The position numbers and the translations under genes are program-made. Below, piece by piece: positions 12,627 to 31,105 of a stretch of DNA of 64,000 bases (its first letter is position 1; each line of letters starts with the position of its first letter). Source of the DNA: Mesorhizobium sp. B1-1-8 (GTDB lineage Bacteria; Pseudomonadota; Alphaproteobacteria; Rhizobiales; Rhizobiaceae). Below the pieces are notes generated by a model. That model saw only the letters and a list, made by a program, of their open reading frames with translations, was not told the origin of the DNA and ran no database searches. The stretch is from NCBI RefSeq assembly GCF_006442795.2, contig NZ_CP083956.1, positions 2,085,501-2,149,500 on the forward strand. The letters are read 5' to 3'.

Positions 12627-12878
12627 GGCAGTCTCTCGGCTCGGCGCAAGAATCTTTCGTGGTTTTGTAATTAAACGACTTTTACGTCCCTGCCAGCCCT
12701 CCCATGTGCGATTTTAGGCCTGTTGCAAAAACCGCTGTTCCGCGACTATTCACAGCGTTGAAGCTTTCCGGGGACGAACGCCAACCTGCCTTGCTGGCAT
12801 CGTAGGCAACACTTACATTACCCGCGACGTCGGACGGGATTTTCAATGCTTCCCGCTGTCCCCTTCGCAGAGGATCTC

Positions 12879-13853
12879 ATGACAACCAAACACGCGCCTG
12901 TTCTCATCATCGGCTCCGGGCCGGCCGGCTATACGGCGGCGATCTATGCCGCCCGCGCCATGCTGAAGCCGATGCTGGTCGCCGGGCTGCAGCAGGGTGG
13001 CCAGCTGATGATTACCACCGACGTCGAGAATTATCCGGGCTTTGCCGATCCGATCCAGGGCCCGTGGCTGATGGAGCAAATGCTGAAGCAGGCCGAGCAT
13101 GTCGGCACCGAGGTCATCAACGACATCATCACCGAGGTGGATCTCGAGGTGCGGCCGTTCCGCGCCACCGGCGATTCCGGCACCGTCTACACCGCCGATG
13201 CGCTGATCATCGCTACCGGCGCGCAGGCCAAGTGGCTTGGCATTCCGTCGGAGCAGACCTTCATGGGCTTCGGCGTGTCGGCCTGCGCCACCTGCGACGG
13301 CTTCTTCTACCGGGGCAAGGACGTCGCGGTGGTAGGCGGCGGCAATTCGGCAGTGGAGGAAGCGCTCTATCTGTCGAACCTCGCCAAGACCGTCACCGTC
13401 ATTCACCGGCGCAGCGATTTCCGCGCCGAGCGCATCCTGCGCGAACGGCTGTTCAAGAAGGACAATGTCCGCGTCATCTGGGACACGGTCGTCGACGAGA
13501 TCACCGGGCAGCCGGGAAGGGCGCCGCTGCCGCCTTCGGTCGAGGGGCTGAAGCTGCGCAATGTGGCGACCGGAGAGGCGTCGCGGCTTAAGGTCGACGG
13601 CGTCTTCGTCGCGATCGGCCATGCGCCCGCGGTTGAGCTTTTCGCCGGCAAACTGAAGCAGAAGCCGAACGGCTATCTGTGGACGGCGCCGGATTCGACC
13701 CGCACCGATGTGCCCGGCGTGTTTGCCGCGGGCGACGTCACCGACGATATCTACCGGCAGGCGGTGACGGCGGCCGGGCTTGGCTGCATGGCCGCGCTCG
13801 AGGCGGAAAAATACCTGGCGGGAATAGAAGTTCACCGCGAAGCGGCGGAATAA
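12879..13853 (+). CDS. trxB: thioredoxin reductase
   Basis: The 324-residue flavoprotein passes electrons from NADPH through FAD to thioredoxin. VLIIGSGPAGYTAAIYAARA binds FAD, the redox-active ACATCDG (CxxC) is near residue 145, VVGGGNSAVEEALYLS is the NADPH Rossmann motif, and GVFAAGDVTDDIYRQAVTAAGLG closes the FAD domain. The ATG at 12879 follows AGAGGA. An upstream ATG at 12846 would add 11 unconserved residues. The redox-linked regulator gene lsrB follows 71 bp downstream on the same strand. Confidence 0.97.
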   Translation: MTTKHAPVLIIGSGPAGYTAAIYAARAMLKPMLVAGLQQGGQLMITTDVENYPGFADPIQGPWLMEQMLKQAEHVGTEVINDIITEVDLEVRPFRATGDSGTVYTADALIIATGAQAKWLGIPSEQTFMGFGVSACATCDGFFYRGKDVAVVGGGNSAVEEALYLSNLAKTVTVIHRRSDFRAERILRERLFKKDNVRVIWDTVVDEITGQPGRAPLPPSVEGLKLRNVATGEASRLKVDGVFVAIGHAPAVELFAGKLKQKPNGYLWTAPDSTRTDVPGVFAAGDVTDDIYRQAVTAAGLGCMAALEAEKYLAGIEVHREAAE

Positions 13854-13924
13854 GCAATCGGCCGAAAGCCGTTTAAAAGCCTGATTTTTCATTCAGACGC
13901 CAAACAGGCAACGCGAGGGGAATC

Positions 13925-14821
13925 ATGGCGCTGGACTGGGACAAGCTACGCGTGTTTCACGCTGCGGCGGAGGCTGGGTCGTTCACCCATGCCGCCGAGA
14001 CGCTGCATCTTTCGCAATCGGCGATCTCGCGGCAGGTCAGCGCGCTGGAGCATGATGTCGGCGTGGCGCTGTTTAATCGCCATGCCCGCGGGCTGGTGCT
14101 GACCGAGCAGGGCGAGATGCTGTTCCGCACGGCACATGACGTGCTGATGAAGCTGGAGACCATCAAGACACGGCTGACCGAGACCAAGGATCGGCCCTCC
14201 GGCGTGCTGCGGGTGACGACCACGGTGGGCCTCGGCGCCGGCTGGCTGACCGAGCGCGTGCAGGAGTTCATCGAGCTCTATCCCGAGATCAGCCTGCAAC
14301 TGATCCTCGCCAATGAGGAGCTCGACCTCACCATGCGCCAGGCCGATTGCGCCATTCGGCTGCGCCAGCCGCAGCAGCCCGATCTCATCCAGCGCCGGTT
14401 GTTCACCGTGCATTTCCATCTCTACGCGGCACCGTCCTATGTGGCGAAGTTCGGCAAGCCGGCCTCGGTCGCCGAGCTCAGGAACCATCGCATCGTCACC
14501 TTCGGCGTGCCGGTGCCCTCGCATTTGTCGGAGCTGAACTGGCTGGAGACGGTCGGCGATTTCGAGGGCGGCCAAAGAGTGCCGACGCTGCAGATCAACG
14601 ATATTTTGTCGATCAAGCGCGCGGTCCAGGGCGGCGCCGGCATCGCCATGCTGCCCGACTATGTGATCAACAAGGATTCCGGTCTGGTGCAACTTTTGCC
14701 GGAGACGGAGGTGCCGTCCTTCGACACCTATTTCGCCTATCCCGACGCGATGAAGAACCAGGCCAAGCTGCACGTCTTCCGCGATTTCATCATCGCCAAG
14801 GCGCGCAGCTGGTCTTACTAG
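13925..14821 (+). CDS. lsrB: LysR-type regulator LsrB/VtlR
   Basis: The 298-residue LysR protein begins MALDWDKLRVFHAAAEAGSF, followed by the helix-turn-helix LHLSQSAISRQVSALEHDVG, closely like Sinorhizobium LsrB and Brucella/Agrobacterium VtlR. The effector domain includes LRVTTTVGLGAGWLTERVQEF and DLTMRQADCAIRLRQPQQ. The lone cysteine (about residue 142) lies in that last segment. The trxB neighbour matches the Sinorhizobium locus. Known orthologues control oxidative-stress and symbiosis genes and activate abcR small RNAs. A candidate AbcR RNA is encoded about 770 bp downstream, which fits. Confidence 0.88.
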   Translation: MALDWDKLRVFHAAAEAGSFTHAAETLHLSQSAISRQVSALEHDVGVALFNRHARGLVLTEQGEMLFRTAHDVLMKLETIKTRLTETKDRPSGVLRVTTTVGLGAGWLTERVQEFIELYPEISLQLILANEELDLTMRQADCAIRLRQPQQPDLIQRRLFTVHFHLYAAPSYVAKFGKPASVAELRNHRIVTFGVPVPSHLSELNWLETVGDFEGGQRVPTLQINDILSIKRAVQGGAGIAMLPDYVINKDSGLVQLLPETEVPSFDTYFAYPDAMKNQAKLHVFRDFIIAKARSWSY

Positions 14822-14836
14822 GTCATTGCGACAGGC

Positions 14837-15334
14837 TTAGCCCCGCCAGGGCGTGATGCGCGGCAGCCAGCCGGGGACCGCGCGGCGGTAGGTTTCATAT
14901 TCGGCACCGTAGCGGCAAGCGAGCGTCGGCTCTTCGTAGACCTTGACGAAGGAGATCATCGCCGCGCCGGCGATCATCCCATAAACAATGACGGCCCAGC
15001 TCGAAAACAGCAGCGCCTGGCCGAGAATGATCGACAGCACCGCGACATACATCGGGTTGCGCACATGGCGGTAGATGCCGCCGATCACCAGTTTCTCGGT
15101 CGGCGCAACGGGAGCCGGCGTGCCCAGGCCCTCCAGGGCGAAACGGGCGAAGGCATGAAGCAGGATCGCTGCTGCGGCGACCACCAGGATCCAGCCTGCC
15201 GGCGCAAAGCCCGGAATGGTCGACAGCGGCATGCGATAATGTTGGGTCAGCAGCCAGGGCACCAGCCCGGCGACGACGCCAGGCGCGGCGACAAGGAACA
15301 GGGCGCTGCCGGCGATTGCCGAAAAAGTCCGCAT
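14837..15334 (-). CDS. isoprenylcysteine methyltransferase-like (ICMT/PEMT) membrane protein
   Basis: A 165-residue protein with four to five hydrophobic helices. The conserved GGIYRHVRNPMYVAVL and a C-terminal YGAEYETYRRAVPGWLPR are the SAM-binding features of the ICMT/phospholipid-methyltransferase family. The ATG at 15334 follows AGGAG. A longer frame from 15406 lacks support. Bacterial members methylate lipids or small molecules, and the substrate is unknown. It is convergent with lsrB, with 15 bp between the stops. Confidence 0.8.
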   Translation of the reverse strand: MRTFSAIAGSALFLVAAPGVVAGLVPWLLTQHYRMPLSTIPGFAPAGWILVVAAAAILLHAFARFALEGLGTPAPVAPTEKLVIGGIYRHVRNPMYVAVLSIILGQALLFSSWAVIVYGMIAGAAMISFVKVYEEPTLACRYGAEYETYRRAVPGWLPRITPWRG

Positions 15335-15497: not shown

Positions 15498-15527
15498 GAG
15501 GGGTTGGACCACAGCCTGCCTCTTTTT
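15498..15527 (+). terminator. terminator-like hairpin upstream of the AbcR candidate
   Basis: GAGG-GGTT pairs with AGCC-(TG)-CCTC around a GGACCAC loop and is followed by TTTTTG. A separate perfect seven-pair hairpin (TCCGAAG-AGG-CTTCGGA) lies just upstream at about 15448-15464. The pair could be the 3' end of another short RNA or simply insulate the AbcR promoter. No promoter is evident for it. Confidence 0.35.
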
Positions 15528-15587
15528 GCATGCGTGTGTTGCAAAATAGATGCTTGTTTCTTGGGCATGATGAGCACATATATAGTT

Positions 15588-15705
15588 CATCTCCAGGGCG
15601 CGTTCTCCTCCCATTAGCGCCCTCGAGTGTTCCCCTCTGGAGGTTAGCCTTAATCGGCACTTCCAATCAAACTCAGCCGGATCTTTATTGATCCGGCTTT
15701 TTTGT
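15588..15705 (+). ncRNA. abcR: candidate AbcR (alpha-r15) trans-acting small RNA
   Basis: About 115 nt run from a TATATA box (15579-15584) to a strong intrinsic terminator, AGCCGGATC-TTTATT-GATCCGGCT followed by TTTTTTG (15674-15704). Near the 5' end the stem GGGCGC/GCGCCC displays a loop with CTCCTCCCATTA, and a second pyrimidine-rich site, GTGTTCCCCTC, follows. The outer pairing CTCCAG/CTGGAG encloses them. Two anti-Shine-Dalgarno motifs, this length and this terminator are the hallmarks of AbcR RNAs, Hfq-dependent repressors of ABC-transporter mRNAs in rhizobia, Agrobacterium and Brucella. It lies downstream of lsrB/vtlR, whose product activates abcR genes elsewhere. No conserved reading frame occupies the stretch. 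Confidence 0.75.
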
Positions 15706-15816
15706 TGCGCGCAGGTCACGCAGCGGCTGGAAAAGCGTTCCCGAGGCCCACGTAACAGTGACATGTAACATTGGGTAACATGTCGCAGACGCACTCTATG
15801 GATTAAGTAGATCATA

Positions 15817-15978
15817 GGACGCGGTTGGTCGGTTCGGGAGATGGGGGCATCACTCGAATAGACCGGGCTCAGGCAGCTGCCGCGTCCGAACCATTTTTCC
15901 TGCTGCGGCGGACCTGCCGTTTGCCTCCCAGGAAAACGGTCCGCAAGACGGCGTCCGGATGCTCCGGGCGCCGTTTTC
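15817..15978 (+). ncRNA. candidate second structured RNA with anti-SD loop and terminator
   Basis: Three structured parts can be read. First, GGACGCGG (15817) can pair with CCGCGTCC (ending 15887), or alternatively GGTTCGG (15831) with CCGAACC (ending 15892), the latter followed by ATTTTT; the two pairings exclude each other. Second, GCGGA/TCCGC plus CCGTTT/AAACGG (15908-15944) holds a loop GCCTCCCAGGA, again anti-SD-like. Third, a 12-pair stem ACGGCG...CGCCGT at 15948-15974 is followed by TTTTC. A promoter is not clear. The rest of the gene-free stretch (15706-15816 and 15979-16020) shows nothing I can name. Confidence 0.35.
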
Positions 15979-16020
15979 ATGTCTCCAACAGAAGCCTGTC
16001 AGGTAGGCCGACCTGCTAGT

Positions 16021-16120
16021 GCGGTTCACCGTTTCACGGAAACGGCGAACCGCACAATCTCCTTGTTCTCACGCAATTCCGGACGGAAAACCGCTCACAC
16101 TTTTCCTGGAATTGCTCTAG
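16021..16120. repeat. palindromic dispersed repeat abutting the EF-G-like stop codon
   Basis: It opens with a near-perfect 15-bp palindrome, GCGGTTCACCGTTTC / GAAACGGCGAACCGC around ACG, and continues with GCAATTCC ... GGAATTGC arms, ending GCTCTAG at 16120. The arrangement is that of the intergenic mosaic elements common in Mesorhizobium. The TAG at its end supplies the stop codon (16117-16119, reverse) of the neighbouring gene. Confidence 0.7.
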
Positions 16121-18168
16121 GCGGCTTTGCCGTTGGCGTTCATCGCCTCGTCGGCCAGCCGGCCGGTGAGCTCGGCCATGTGGTCGAACGCGGCCCTGTA
16201 GCTGGCGACGCCGGCCGTTGCCGAACGCAACTCGATGATCAGGTCGCCGATTTCGGCCTGCGGCATCGTCGCCTCGACCACGTCCCATCCCGGCCAGTCG
16301 GGCCGCGCGTCGTAGCCGAGGATCTGGCCGCGCCGCTGCGGGATCAGCGCGATGATCTTCGAGGTCGCATCGGAAGGCGTGACGATCTCGACCTTCATGA
16401 TCGGCTCCAGCAGGACCGGCGAACAGGCCGCCATGCCTTCCTTCATCGCCAGTTTCGCCGCCATCTGGAAGGCCATGTCGGACGAATCGACGGCATGGTA
16501 GGAGCCGTCCGATAAGTTGACCGCGACATCGACGACCGGGAAGCCGAGCGGGCCGGATTTCAGATAGTCGCGAATGCCTGTCTCCACCGACTGGATGTAG
16601 GTCTTGGGCACGACGCCGCCGGTGATGGTGTCGGTGAACTGGAAGCCCGAGCCGCGCGGCAGCGGCTTGATCTCGATCACCACGTCGCCGAACTGGCCGT
16701 GACCGCCTGACTGCTTCTTGTGGCGGCCGCGCTGCTGCGCGCCTTTGCGGATCGTTTCCCGATAAGGCACCGCCGGGGTGTGACCCTCGATCGGGATCTG
16801 GTTCTTGCCCTCCAGGCGCTCTCGCACCACGCGCAGATGCATTTCGCCATGCCCCGACAGCACGGTTTCAGCCGAGTCCTGGTTGTGTCGCAGGCTGAGC
16901 GAAGGATCCTCCTCGGCGAGCCTTTGGATCGCCGCCGACATCTTGACCTCGTCCTTGCGCTCCTTGGGACGCAGCGCGAAGGCAAAGACCGGCTGCGGCG
17001 CTTCCAGCGTGACCAGCGGCCTGATGCCCCCTTTGGCCGAACTCAGCGTCTGGCCGGTCTTGACGTTGTCGAGCTTGCCGAGCGCAACGGTATCGCCAGC
17101 CTTGGCGGAGGCCAGCTTGGACTGGTCCTTGCCGAGCATCCTGTAGATGCCTGAAACCTTCGCCGTGTCGCCATTGGAGAGGAAAAGCTCGGCCGCGTCG
17201 GCCAGTTGCCCGGAAAGCACCCGCGAGACCGACAGTTTGCCGCCATGCGCCGTGTGGATGGTCTTCATCACCTGCACGACAGTCTGGTTGCCGTCGGGCG
17301 CGCCCAGGTGCTTGCGGGTCGCCTCGACATCCGGCGCATCATGACGGATCGTCTTCAACAGGCGCAGCACGCCATTGCCTTTCTCGGCGGTGCCGATCAG
17401 CACCGGCGTCACCGCGCCGATGCGCAGGTCTGCGGCAAGGTCGTCGAAAATCGCGTCCTTTGGCGGCTCGATCTCCTCCAGCAATTGCTCCATCAGCTGG
17501 TCGTCGTGGTCGGCCAGCGTCTCCAGCATCGAGAAGCGTGCCTCCAGCTCGCGCGCCTTGTCGTCGCCCGGTATCTCGGCGACCTCGCTCTCGGCATATT
17601 CGCGATAGATGTAGGCGCGCTCCAGCGCCAGATCGATCGAGCCGATGACGACGCCATCCTTGCGCAGCGGAATCTGGCGCAACAGCAGCGGCACCGAACT
17701 TGCCGGCTGCAGCATCTTCAGCGTGTCGCGCACGCCGGCGATAGCCTTGTCGACCTTGTTCAGGAACAGGATGCGCGGCACGCCGAGATCGTCGAGCTTG
17801 CGCATGATGAGCTGCAGCGCCGGGATCTTCTTCTCGTCGGCCTCGGCCACGACCACAGCCATGTCGCAAGCGGCAAGCACCGGCTCGGCCTCGAAGGCGA
17901 ATTCGATCGAGCCGGGGCAGTCGACGAAGGTGAACGGTTCGCCCATGAATTCCGTGGTGGCGAAGGTCGCCTCGACGCTCATGGCGTGGGCGCGGGCCTC
18001 GGGCGAATGATCGGAGACAGTGTTGCCCGATGAAACCGGATTCTGGCGGGGAATGGCGCCCGTTCGGGCGAGGATGGCTTCGAGAAGTGTCGTCTTACCG
18101 CTTGCGAAGGGACCGACTATGGCAATGCATTTCGGTCCCGTGCGTCGTCCTCCGGCGCGAGTACCCAT
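16117..18168 (-). CDS. elongation factor G-like GTPase (EF-G paralogue)
   Basis: The 683-residue protein has all five EF-G domains. The G domain shows GPFASGKTTLLEAIL (P loop), FVDCPGSIEFAFE (G3) and LFLNKVDKA (G4). Domains II-III follow, then domain IV near QFGDVVIEIKPL, and domain V with GDLIIELRSATAGVASYRAAF. Canonical EF-G reads AHIDAGKTT and DTPGHVDF; here the P-loop Asp and the catalytic G3 His are replaced (FASGKTT and DCPGS). It therefore belongs to an EF-G-like side branch that may hydrolyse GTP differently or act outside translocation. It lacks the usual rpsL-rpsG-tuf context. GGAGG precedes the ATG. Confidence 0.88.
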   Translation of the reverse strand: MGTRAGGRRTGPKCIAIVGPFASGKTTLLEAILARTGAIPRQNPVSSGNTVSDHSPEARAHAMSVEATFATTEFMGEPFTFVDCPGSIEFAFEAEPVLAACDMAVVVAEADEKKIPALQLIMRKLDDLGVPRILFLNKVDKAIAGVRDTLKMLQPASSVPLLLRQIPLRKDGVVIGSIDLALERAYIYREYAESEVAEIPGDDKARELEARFSMLETLADHDDQLMEQLLEEIEPPKDAIFDDLAADLRIGAVTPVLIGTAEKGNGVLRLLKTIRHDAPDVEATRKHLGAPDGNQTVVQVMKTIHTAHGGKLSVSRVLSGQLADAAELFLSNGDTAKVSGIYRMLGKDQSKLASAKAGDTVALGKLDNVKTGQTLSSAKGGIRPLVTLEAPQPVFAFALRPKERKDEVKMSAAIQRLAEEDPSLSLRHNQDSAETVLSGHGEMHLRVVRERLEGKNQIPIEGHTPAVPYRETIRKGAQQRGRHKKQSGGHGQFGDVVIEIKPLPRGSGFQFTDTITGGVVPKTYIQSVETGIRDYLKSGPLGFPVVDVAVNLSDGSYHAVDSSDMAFQMAAKLAMKEGMAACSPVLLEPIMKVEIVTPSDATSKIIALIPQRRGQILGYDARPDWPGWDVVEATMPQAEIGDLIIELRSATAGVASYRAAFDHMAELTGRLADEAMNANGKAA

Positions 18169-28066: not shown

Positions 28067-29335
28067 GTGAAGCTCTTTCACGCCTTTGTTGCGCTTGCGC
28101 TCGGCATCATGCTGATGGCCGCTCCGGCCCGCGCGGTCGATCTGTCGATCGTGTCGGGAGACACCGGCAATGGCATCAAGGTGCTGCGCGAGATACTCGA
28201 CCGCTATGAGAAGCAAAGCGGCAACAAGGTCACTATCGTTGTCCTGCCACCATCGACGACCGACCAGTTCGGCCTTTACCGGTTGTGGCTTGCCGCCGGA
28301 AACACCGACATCGACGTCTACCAGACCGACGTCATCTGGGCGCCGCAGCTCGCCAGCCAGCTCGTCGACCTGACGGAGGCGACCAGGGATATCGTGGCTG
28401 AGCATTTCCCGTCGATCATCCAGTCGCAGACCGTCAATGGCAGGCTGGTGGCGCTGCCGATCTTCACCGATGCGCCGGCGCTCTATTACCGCAAGGATCT
28501 GCTCGACAAATACGGTGCCAAGGTGCCGGCCACCTGGAAGGAGCTGGCCGACACCGCCAGGCTGGTCGTGGACAAGGAGCGCGCGGCCGGCAACAAGGAT
28601 ATCTGGGGCTTCGTCTTCCAGGGCAACGCCTATGAGGGGCTGACCTGCGATGCGCTCGAATGGGTGATGTCGAATGGCGGCGGCCAGATTATCGAGCCGG
28701 ACGGAACGGTTTCTATCAACAACCCGAGAGCCGCGGCCGCGCTCGACATGGCCAGGGGCTGGATCGGCACCATCTCGCCTCCCGGTGTGCTTGCCTACCA
28801 GGAGGAGGAATCGCGCGGCGTCTGGCAGACCGGCAATGCGGTTTTCATGCGCAACTGGCCTTACGCCTATGCGCTCGGCAACAGCGCGGATTCGCCGATC
28901 AAGGGCGAGTTCGACGTGGCGCCGCTGCCGGCTGGCACAGGCGAGGGCGCCCGCCCCGTGGCGACGCTCGGCGGCTGGAACCTGGCGGTCTCCAAATATT
29001 CGAAACACCGGGATGCCGCGATCGAGCTGGTCAAGTTCATCGCCTCGCCGCAGATGCAGAAATACCGCACGCTGAAGACGGCCAATCTGCCAACCATAGA
29101 GGCGCTCTATGACGATGCTGATATCGCCAGGCAACAGCCGATCGTGCCGCGCTGGAAGCAGATTTTCCTCAACGCGGTGCCGCGCCCGTCGGCCACCGTC
29201 AAGATCAAATACAACGAGGCGTCGAGCCAGTTCTGGACGGCCGTGCACAACACCATGTCGGGCGAAGGCAGCGCCGCCGGCAATCTGGCAGACCTTGAAG
29301 CGAGGCTGACCAAGTTGAAGGGCAAGGGCTGGTGA
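28067..29335 (+). CDS. ABC transporter sugar-binding protein (trehalose/maltose type)
   Basis: A 422-residue family 1 periplasmic binding protein. The GTG at 28067, with GGGAG upstream, opens a signal peptide ending APARAVDL. FVFQGNAYEGLTCDALEWV and NPRAAAALDMARGWIG are segments typical of the ThuE/AglE-like disaccharide binders of rhizobia, and LGGWNLAVSKYSKHRDAAIELVKFI is the general family 1 signature. It overlaps the first permease gene by four bases (GTGA). The likely ligands are trehalose, maltose or sucrose, by family resemblance only. Confidence 0.85.
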   Translation: MKLFHAFVALALGIMLMAAPARAVDLSIVSGDTGNGIKVLREILDRYEKQSGNKVTIVVLPPSTTDQFGLYRLWLAAGNTDIDVYQTDVIWAPQLASQLVDLTEATRDIVAEHFPSIIQSQTVNGRLVALPIFTDAPALYYRKDLLDKYGAKVPATWKELADTARLVVDKERAAGNKDIWGFVFQGNAYEGLTCDALEWVMSNGGGQIIEPDGTVSINNPRAAAALDMARGWIGTISPPGVLAYQEEESRGVWQTGNAVFMRNWPYAYALGNSADSPIKGEFDVAPLPAGTGEGARPVATLGGWNLAVSKYSKHRDAAIELVKFIASPQMQKYRTLKTANLPTIEALYDDADIARQQPIVPRWKQIFLNAVPRPSATVKIKYNEASSQFWTAVHNTMSGEGSAAGNLADLEARLTKLKGKGW

Positions 29336-30279
29336 GCGTCACGCCTGCGAGGCGACCGCGGCTGATGGCGCAGCGCGTGCGCTCTGCATGGCTGTTCCTG
29401 GCGCCGATGCTTGCGGTGCTGGCCGCCGTTGCCGGCTGGCCGCTGCTGCGCACCGTCTATTTCAGTTTCACGGACGCTTCGCTGGCAGACCTCGATGCCC
29501 GCCAATTTGTCGGCTTCGCCAATTATTTCTCGGTGCTGCGCCTGCCGAGCGGCCGGGTGCTCTATGACGGGCTGCTTGTCGATCCGGTCTGGTGGGGCGC
29601 GGTCTGGAACACCGCACGCTTCACTGTGATCTCGGTGACGTGCGAGACGGTGCTCGGCACGATCGTCGCCCTGGTGCTCAACGCCAACTTCCCCGGCCGC
29701 GGCATCGTCAGGGCGGCCATCCTCATCCCCTGGGCGATCCCGACGATCGTCTCGGCCAAGATGTGGCAATGGATGCTCAACGACCAATTCGGCATCATCA
29801 ATGTCGTGCTGGTCAATCTCGGCCTGATCAGCCACAAGATCGCCTGGACCGCCAGGGCCGACACGGCGATGGCGGCCGTACTCATCGTCGATATCTGGAA
29901 GACGACGCCGTTCATGGCGCTGCTGATCCTTGCAGCACTGCAGATGCTGCCGCGCGAGATCATCGAGGTCGCCAGGCTCGACGGCGCCAACCCATGGCAG
30001 ATTTTCTGGAAAGTGACGTTGCCGCTCATCCGCCCGGCGGTGATGGTGGCCGTCATCTTCCGCGCGCTCGATGCGCTGCGCATCTTCGATCTGATCTATG
30101 TGCTGACGCCCAATAATGTGCACACCAAATCGATGTCGGTGTTCACCCGCGAGAACCTTTTCGAGTTCGACAAGTTCGCCTACGGCTCAGCCGCCTCGAC
30201 CCTGTTTTTCCTGATCCTCGCGCTGCTTACGATTTCCTACATACGGATCGGCCGCATCAGCCTCGACGGAGGCCGTTGA
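29332..30279 (+). CDS. sugar ABC transporter permease (MalF type)
   Basis: The 315-residue inner-membrane protein has six or more hydrophobic helices. The EAA loop reads EIIEVARLDGANPWQIFWKVTLPLI, the contact site for the ATPase. The GTG start overlaps the binding-protein stop. The order binding protein, MalF-type, MalG-type is that of thuEFG and similar operons. It should pair with the following permease to form the channel. Confidence 0.88.
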   Translation: MSVTPARRPRLMAQRVRSAWLFLAPMLAVLAAVAGWPLLRTVYFSFTDASLADLDARQFVGFANYFSVLRLPSGRVLYDGLLVDPVWWGAVWNTARFTVISVTCETVLGTIVALVLNANFPGRGIVRAAILIPWAIPTIVSAKMWQWMLNDQFGIINVVLVNLGLISHKIAWTARADTAMAAVLIVDIWKTTPFMALLILAALQMLPREIIEVARLDGANPWQIFWKVTLPLIRPAVMVAVIFRALDALRIFDLIYVLTPNNVHTKSMSVFTRENLFEFDKFAYGSAASTLFFLILALLTISYIRIGRISLDGGR

Positions 30280-30280
30280 G

Positions 30281-31105
30281 ATGAGAATCCTGAAGCGCGC
30301 GGCCTTCTATCTGCTGGTTTTGATGATCGTCTTTGTCGCGGTGTTCCCGTTCTACTATGCCATCGTCACCAGCCTGAAGTCGGGAACAGAGCTGTTCCAG
30401 GCTGACCTGTGGCCGAGGACGTTCAGCCTCGGCAATTACAGGAACGTGCTGACCGAGGGCGCTTTCGCGCGCAATCTCGTGAACTCGCTGATCGTCTCAG
30501 GGGCGGTCGTCTCGGTCTCCCTGCTGCTCGGCGTCACCGCGGCCTACGCGCTGGCGCGCATCCGCTTCCGCGGCCGCTCGGCCCTGCTGCTTGCCATCCT
30601 GTCGGTCTCGATGTTCCCGCAGGTGGCGGTGCTGGCCGGCCTGTTCGAGATTATCCGGATGTTCGGCCTCTACAATTCGCTCGTCGCACTGATCTTCTCC
30701 TACATGATCTTCACCTTGCCGTTCATCGTCTGGGTGCTCACCACCTTCGTGCGCGACCTGCCGGTCGAGGTCGAGGAAGCGGCGATCCTCGATGGCGCGA
30801 CGCCGTGGATCATCGTCACCCGCGTCTTCCTGCCGCTGATGTGGCCGGCGCTGGCGACGACCGGCATGCTCGCCTTCATCGGCGCCTGGAACGAGTTCCT
30901 GTTTGCGCTCACCTTCACCTCCAATAATACGCAGCGGACCGTGCCGGTGGCGATCGCGCTGCTGTCCGGCAATTCGCAGTTCGAAATCCCGTGGGGCAAC
31001 ATCATGGCCGCGTCGGTGATCGTCACCGTGCCGCTGGTGGTGCTGGTGCTCATCTTCCAGCGCAAGATCGTCTCCGGCCTCACTGCCGGCGGCGTCAAGG
31101 GATGA
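30281..31105 (+). CDS. sugar ABC transporter permease (MalG type)
   Basis: The 274-residue permease has six hydrophobic helices and the EAA loop EVEEAAILDGATPWIIVTRVFLPLM. It starts one base after the stop of the preceding permease. No ATP-binding gene follows: the next gene encodes a DUF899 protein after 138 bp. The transporter must therefore borrow an ATPase encoded elsewhere, as in MsiK-type systems, or the operon has lost it. Confidence 0.88.
   Translation: MRILKRAAFYLLVLMIVFVAVFPFYYAIVTSLKSGTELFQADLWPRTFSLGNYRNVLTEGAFARNLVNSLIVSGAVVSVSLLLGVTAAYALARIRFRGRSALLLAILSVSMFPQVAVLAGLFEIIRMFGLYNSLVALIFSYMIFTLPFIVWVLTTFVRDLPVEVEEAAILDGATPWIIVTRVFLPLMWPALATTGMLAFIGAWNEFLFALTFTSNNTQRTVPVAIALLSGNSQFEIPWGNIMAASVIVTVPLVVLVLIFQRKIVSGLTAGGVKG

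Follow-up and report, generated by a model that had tools for sequence, protein, structure and literature searches.

An LsrB-AbcR locus in Mesorhizobium with an additional, apparently undescribed structured RNA behind AbcR

Results

Organisation of the locus

The window analysed here is a stretch of 64,000 nucleotides of contig NZ_CP083956.1 from Mesorhizobium sp. B1-1-8 (genome size 6.19 Mb), and coordinates refer to this window unless they are called genome positions. On its plus strand, trxB (12846-13853) is followed by an lsrB/vtlR orthologue (13925-14821) encoding a LysR-type regulator of 298 aa and then, beyond a methyltransferase-like gene on the minus strand (about 14837-15334), by the gene for an AbcR (ar15) small RNA (15589-15703, plus strand, with ends taken from the Rfam match). 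Behind AbcR lies a second plus-strand block that is conserved across 80 sequences (15748-15980) and holds the element that we call RNA B (about 15817-15979, plus strand, ends inferred). An EF-G-like gene on the minus strand (16117-18168) is convergent and faces RNA B. The comparison set was made up of the best 80 matches to the window LsrB, which are 96-99% identical and of which 78 are from Mesorhizobium; the 80-sequence alignment comprises the window and the loci of 79 of these 80 relatives, L034 having been left out because its contig ends before the small RNA. One locus, L080, has about 2.6 kb of extra sequence ahead of abcR in comparison with most loci, and AbcR and RNA B are still found together there. 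Between RNA B and the EF-G-like gene there is a long near-perfect inverted repeat (16016-16058) that is poorly conserved among relatives, and we rejected the low Rfam matches near it, including mir-299, as an inverted repeat resembling these families by chance. 

The sequence-only reading of this DNA had placed the small RNA within 0.8 kb of an lsrB/vtlR orthologue. This proved correct, since the lsrB stop (14821) lies 768 bp before the AbcR start at 15589 and the lsrB product aligns along residues 1-298 with PDB 9HH1 at 478.7 bits, 9HH1 being the structure of LsrB from A. tumefaciens (PMC11975290). In the A. tumefaciens protein a disulfide between C144 and C273 has been proposed, and replacement of C273 gave the peroxide sensitivity of an lsrB mutant (PMC11975290). 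The window LsrB has a single cysteine, C142, which aligns with C144 and is likewise the one cysteine in all 80 close relatives, and it has alanine 271 at the position of C273. Both cysteines are kept in 7 of 7 sequences read from genomes that carry tandem AbcR genes (see below), and the C273 position in the 14 readable B-bearing loci outside the genus is Cys in 7, Ala in 6 and Val in 1. The missing cysteine predicts that this LsrB does not respond to peroxide via the cysteine pair described in Agrobacterium. Since LsrB of M. huakuii interacts in two-hybrid assays with four methionine sulfoxide reductases (PMC13272141), redox control of LsrB may, by analogy, follow another route, in which a different residue such as a methionine might take over.

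The AbcR gene and its probable promoter

An RNA gene of about 115 nt had been proposed within 15540-15710, with a covariance search as its check. This search places the gene at 15589-15703, where the Rfam model RF02345 (ar15/AbcR) matches the plus strand over model positions 1-112 of 112 with 48.7 bits against a gathering score of 40 (E = 7.2e-07 for the whole window), so that the proposal was not refuted. The RNA is predicted to fold into three hairpins at -47.1 kcal/mol, compared with -25.4 +/- 3.2 for 200 dinucleotide shuffles, of which 0 were as stable (z = -6.9). Following the motif definition of PMC8844928, the first anti-Shine-Dalgarno motif, aSD1 (CUCCUCCC, 15605-15612, plus strand), is the loop of the first, 5' hairpin, and the second, aSD2 (UUCCCCUC, 15630-15637, plus strand), lies in an open single-stranded linker. 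Just as had been read from the letters, one motif is thus held in a stem-loop and the other in an open segment, and both are unpaired in the minimum-energy fold (RNA positions 17-24 and 42-49, the latter being TTCCCCTC at 15630-15637). The expected nine-pair terminator with T6 is also present (15675-15703, plus strand), its hairpin occupying 15675-15698 before the T run. Covariance model, motifs, fold and synteny agree on AbcR, which confirms the original observation and supports the identity of the gene as a member of the AbcR/ar15 family.

The abcR promoter and the RNA are nearly invariant among the 80 sequences. At E <= 0.01 the ar15 model matched 37 of the 37 genomes of the genus in one sample of 61 genomes, 34 of them at least twice, and 116 of 151 genomes in the family sample, in 84 of 109 genera. 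An AbcR in Mesorhizobium is not new, because M. loti is named in the legend of the ar15 alignment in PMC3712013; the gene described here adds one more member to an established family and is ordinary in kind. According to PMC5596092, the majority of widespread rhizobial small RNAs, among which AbcR1/2 are named, had not been discovered in M. huakuii 7653R. Transcription of the gene, binding of the RNA to Hfq and ABC-transporter mRNAs as its targets would be expected from its family.

Ahead of the RNA lies the inverted repeat TTTTGCA-N9-TGCAAAA (15524-15546, plus strand), the sole perfect copy in the genome, the arms of which are perfect in 80 of 80 aligned sequences. Within it, at 15528-15540, is found the LsrB-box consensus GCAT-N3-TG-N3-T, whose sequence and position have been published for S. 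meliloti (PMC8844928); it is fully kept in 70 of 80 sequences and falls exactly at -61 to -49 provided that the transcript begins with base 15589, as the Rfam match does. The TATATA box that had been noticed ahead of the RNA corresponds to a TATATA run at 15579-15584, and from the position of the published PabcR1 (PMC8844928) we place a conserved -35 element CTTGTT and -10 element ACATAT, separated by a 17-nt spacer, at 15553-15581 (plus strand). A simple sigma-70 scan found no promoter at abcR. With a predicted LsrB box that is conserved and stands at the published position, LsrB may activate abcR here as well. We do not claim further LsrB sites in the genome because, at up to 2 mismatches, a reversed-pattern control gave 12 matches and the pattern itself 8. 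A site resembling the LsrB box with one mismatch is found at genome positions 940534-940556 (L165), beside a gene that is OsmC-like by translation.

A second ar15 copy is present in this genome at genome positions 5152696-5152793 (L002, minus strand, 47.4 bits), and it has no LsrB-type site at up to 2 mismatches. By eye its promoter is unlike the RpoH1 consensus of S. meliloti abcR2. At least 24 genomes of the family have a second ar15 RNA adjoining the first, mostly about 200 nt apart, and a credible match to RNA B was found in 0 of these 24 tandem-AbcR genomes, the match of G234 (24.8 bits) lying about 1 Mb away. It follows that RNA B mostly fills the position that a second AbcR has in those genomes. 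In G294 (L151) three tandem AbcR copies are followed by RNA B. Extra ar15 copies in G016, G019 and G030 (L085-L087) score 99-109 bits, much nearer to the Rfam consensus than the lsrB-linked copies, and were perhaps acquired horizontally.

Leaders with complementarity to AbcR

The Shine-Dalgarno sequence of lsrB, GAGGGGAA (13915-13922, plus strand), is proposed as a target site of AbcR, and the lsrB leader ranks 2nd among the 58 predicted leaders of the window for pairing with the AbcR motifs. The full 8-mer occurs in 61 of 80 lsrB leaders of relatives and is absent from 19, these leaders being closely related and hence not independent, compared with 0 of 425 other ORFs, the starts of which were picked by a simple rule; the core GAGGGG occurs in 77 of the same 80 leaders and in 3 of the 425 ORFs. 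An earlier control based on the first ATG contained the 8-mer in 0 of 185 cases. Among 21 distinct leaders from other loci, some of them of the genus, the 8-mer is present in 7 and absent in 14, among which are 7 of 7 leaders of tandem-AbcR genomes. In the predicted local fold the lsrB Shine-Dalgarno sequence is mostly paired (unpaired probability 0.01-0.42). GAGGGGAA and aSD2 are exactly complementary, which suggests that AbcR may exert negative feedback on lsrB in Mesorhizobium. In A. tumefaciens, LsrB is described as autoregulating the trxB-lsrB operon transcriptionally (PMC11975290). The terms "feedback" and "autoregul" are absent from the main texts of PMC8844928 and PMC7486931; other literature may differ.

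The sequence-only reading also counted several ABC transporters in the window, which is weakly borne out. Pfam scans of 25 of the 58 predicted ORFs revealed one ABC import operon, with a solute-binding protein at 28067-29332 and permeases at 29332-31102. In a strict motif search, none of the window ORFs combined a Walker A motif with an ABC signature. When the 58 leaders are ordered by the energy of their pairing with the AbcR motifs, that of the operon comes 22nd, and the energies across the window show no selectivity for ABC genes. Such genes in the window therefore add little to the reading of AbcR targets.

A second conserved RNA behind AbcR

After the AbcR terminator, identity among the 80 sequences is 0.45-0.47 at 15710-15749 and is high again over 15748-15980. 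This block, which is absent from the sequence-only reading, spans 171-203 nt in the genus, and the model match to RNA B begins 107 nt past the end of the AbcR match. We used two covariance models: R1, of the B block, built from 33 sequences (L081 was left out when diverse B sequences were chosen), and R2, of the 5' domain of RNA B. In this genome R1 finds one full-length copy, the other two matches being an echo of the terminator hairpin and a 14-bit match. Within the genus RNA B is found in 144 of 146 genomes at E <= 1e-8. In the family sample R1 gave matches at E <= 0.001 in 22 of 151 genomes, and 16 of these genomes reach at least 37 bits. Outside the genus, 14 genomes from 12 further genera reach at least 37 bits, and in 14 of these 14 the AbcR core motif stands upstream on the same strand; the ar15 model confirmed the upstream AbcR in the four of these loci that were scanned. 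The weaker family matches come from six genomes, of which G249 (L162, 26.2 bits) is syntenic and a marginal member; L160, L161 and L163, weak matches that lack AbcR/lsrB synteny, were rejected as RNA B, and G234 and G263 were not among the loci fetched.

R2 matched 28 of 297 genomes of the family, which belong to 14 of 109 genera. At its 34 loci, the AbcR core motif is found upstream in 32, the nearest copy 204-477 nt before B; these 32 loci represent 32 genomes, 9 of the genus, and many of them are also in the R1 family set. Among the 32, lsrB lies within the flank examined in 30; when up to 2 mismatches are allowed, the repeat TGTAAC-N4-GGTAAC-NT is found in 29 and the LsrB box in 27. The two exceptions (L206 and L207, on contig C73 of G029) are copies of the 5' domain of B only; they have shared flanks in a duplicated segment, neither abcR nor lsrB is present in the 3 kb examined, and they were perhaps carried there by a duplicated or mobile segment. 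At the level of the order, where both models were run with Infernal's stricter filters and weak matches are lost, R2 found the genus only (9 of 397 genomes), and R1 matched 26 of 199 genomes at E <= 0.01. Of these 26, 4 belong to the genus; none of the remaining 22 exceeds 37.9 bits, and many match the terminator hairpin only. The best of these 22, L120, was the sole one inspected and was rejected, as by eye it is an unrelated sequence with a terminator hairpin and has no LsrB nearby.

RNA B is composed of a 5' domain with a GAUG-GGGG-CAUC hairpin, a 3' hairpin with a CCUCCC loop and a terminator-like hairpin. In alignment A4 (26 sequences; L119, L120 and L159-L162 left out), which was fitted to the model and so favours its structure, 97.6% of cells pair. 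In the same alignment 21 of 47 pairs have changes on both sides, compared with 8.5 +/- 1.8 in shuffles, which ignore relatedness, and at most 8 when the partners were slid. RNAalifold applied to the 33 close B sequences alone gave 4 of 47 pairs changed on both sides. The GAUG-GGGG-CAUC hairpin pairs in 141 of 176 cells over 22 sequences (L158, 1 of 23, was set aside as it has no core match), compared with 114 +/- 4.4 when the 3' halves were dealt anew. There are 117 G-U cells but only 10 A-C cells, a large excess that places RNA B on the plus strand, and its fold gives z = -2.1 to -5.9 in seven loci. CCTCC is found in the 3' hairpin loop of 72 of the 74 genus sequences (of 80) that match the flanking pattern. 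The CCUCCC loop is missing in L155, L157, L158 and L159, and because it is missing in some genera it may not be the working part of B. The terminator-like hairpin (15945-15977, plus strand) has 15 pairs, with the last four U within the stem; a simple terminator scan of the window did not list it, and minus-strand terminator echoes were not used.

Upstream of B, the repeat TGTAAC-N4-GGTAAC-AT (15764-15781, plus strand) is a proposed activator site; it lies at a similar distance from B across loci, and no other perfect TGTAAC-N4-GGTAAC site was found in the genome. ChvI was considered as the regulator and rejected, its published consensuses (N-GCC-N8-GCC in S. meliloti and TTGC-N3-GCAA in Caulobacter; PMC9731502) being unlike this repeat. 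RNA B is without a match in Rfam 15: the best scores over B in the window were 16.4 bits for Scr6925 (cut-off 50) and 14.9 for BcKCsr2 (cut-off 40), and nothing relevant was found at E <= 0.1 over B in four loci of other genera. We also rejected B as a paralogue of AbcR, since in the window and in the same four loci ar15 matched the upstream AbcR only. RNA B, whose conservation, structure, coding strand and synteny are shown above, is apparently an undescribed structured RNA separate from AbcR, for which a function can be proposed (see below).

Discussion

The locus is close to that of AbcR1 of S. meliloti (alpha-r15, RF02345; SMc01226-lsrB intergenic region), with which it shares the family model, both aSD motifs, the predicted LsrB box at -61 to -49, the terminator and the nearness to lsrB (PMC8844928). 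In S. meliloti, however, the second AbcR stands in tandem with the first, whereas here the unrelated RNA B follows and the second AbcR copy is elsewhere on the contig; the methyltransferase-like gene between lsrB and abcR is a further difference. The activation of an AbcR RNA by a regulator of the LsrB/VtlR type that is predicted here has a counterpart in Brucella abortus (AbcR2/VtlR, compared by description), and the Brucella seeds M1 CUCCCA and M2 GUUCCC (PMC9751625) are both present in the AbcR described here. NfeR1 of S. meliloti (alpha-r14) is an LsrB-activated small RNA with aSD motifs, and it takes part in a feedback loop on ntrBC (PMC10746234). The RNA described here differs from NfeR1 in its ar14 score in the window (20.3 bits, cut-off 58.8) and in that the proposed feedback is on lsrB.

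We think it likely that the locus consists of an LsrB-AbcR module and, behind this, a second RNA gene that is separate from it. In this module LsrB would bind the inverted repeat at 15524-15546 and activate the sigma-70 promoter, giving rise to the 115-nt AbcR. With aSD1 displayed in a loop and aSD2 in an open segment, AbcR would then cover the ribosome-binding sites of many mRNAs, mainly those for nutrient uptake, and pairing would lower their translation. In Mesorhizobium one likely target would be lsrB itself, which would close a negative loop. This account is carried by the AbcR family membership, the conserved box with its position and the complementarity to lsrB, and it would imply transcription, activation by LsrB in the genus, target pairing and the feedback loop. 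RNA B would have a promoter of its own, controlled by a different regulator that recognises the TGTAAC-N4-GGTAAC repeat, would stop at its own terminator and would probably act in trans via the CCUCCC loop of its 3' hairpin.

Several other explanations can be considered. AbcR and B are close, on the same strand and together in 32 of 34 loci, and the EF-G-like gene that faces B ends at 16117, so that only AbcR might be functional and B might be a read-through tail or a cis element, either belonging to the convergent EF-G-like gene as its 3' UTR or forming part of a long AbcR. However, AbcR closes with a strong terminator, identity drops between the two blocks and is high on both sides, B comes with a conserved upstream repeat and a terminator-like hairpin of its own, and the G-U counts put B on the plus strand, the EF-G-like gene being on the minus strand. 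We therefore regard this explanation as unlikely. That B is a sponge, with its invariant GAUGGGGGCAUC hairpin capturing the AbcR motifs, appears quite improbable. It can be read from the letters that GAUGGGGG of B could pair with CUCCCAUU of AbcR over eight positions, two of them G-U, the isolated segments pair at -12.8 kcal/mol (aSD1) and -16.6 kcal/mol (aSD2), and the tandem position of B would suit such a role. However, co-folding B with AbcR, a calculation that is blind to loop-loop contacts, gained only -0.7 kcal/mol compared with a shuffled mean of -5.3, and 95 of 100 shuffles equalled or exceeded this gain; a sponge is thus unsupported by co-folding. As both RNAs are nearly invariant, covariation between them is uninformative. 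We consider it highly improbable that the ar15 match beside lsrB is a decayed or silent copy and that the copy at 5152696-5152793 is the working AbcR, for although the latter has a nearly equal score, it has no LsrB-type site, and the promoter, the box and both motifs are nearly invariant at the lsrB-linked copy in the 80 sequences.

A separate matter is whether B is already known as a small RNA, such as MH_s25 or MH_s39, that was detected in M. huakuii 7653R and is unannotated, which we see as a real possibility while leaning against it. Both of these RNAs oppose two co-directional flanking genes, as B does (Table 1 of PMC5596092), and both were tested on northern blots; MH_s25 is also similar in length, its 187 nt by RNA-seq falling within the span of the B block (PMC5596092). 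Against this, B lies at the 7653R coordinates 4532142-4532343 or 6026827-6027187 in 0 of 146 genus genomes. The marker sequences GATGGGGGCATC and GGACGCGG would serve to recognise B in 7653R.

Under the preferred reading, the locus is a variant that possibly combines a self-limiting LsrB-AbcR loop with an additional conserved RNA. More tentatively, we propose that the lsrB locus of Mesorhizobium and of at least a dozen related genera is a two-RNA module, in which an LsrB-activated AbcR, repressing its own activator in Mesorhizobium, is joined by the new family B under a separate activator, mostly in the slot of the tandem AbcR, and that in lineages without the LsrB cysteine the Agrobacterium cysteine switch would no longer drive the module. 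The AbcR RNAs of S. meliloti control nutrient uptake and root colonisation. Our literature search found little published work on the AbcR module in Mesorhizobium, the layout of which is shown here. Two sharp predictions arise, namely negative feedback of AbcR on lsrB and no peroxide response via an Agrobacterium-type cysteine pair. RNA B, if our reading is true, would be a new and easily tested RNA family tied to the LsrB-AbcR module.
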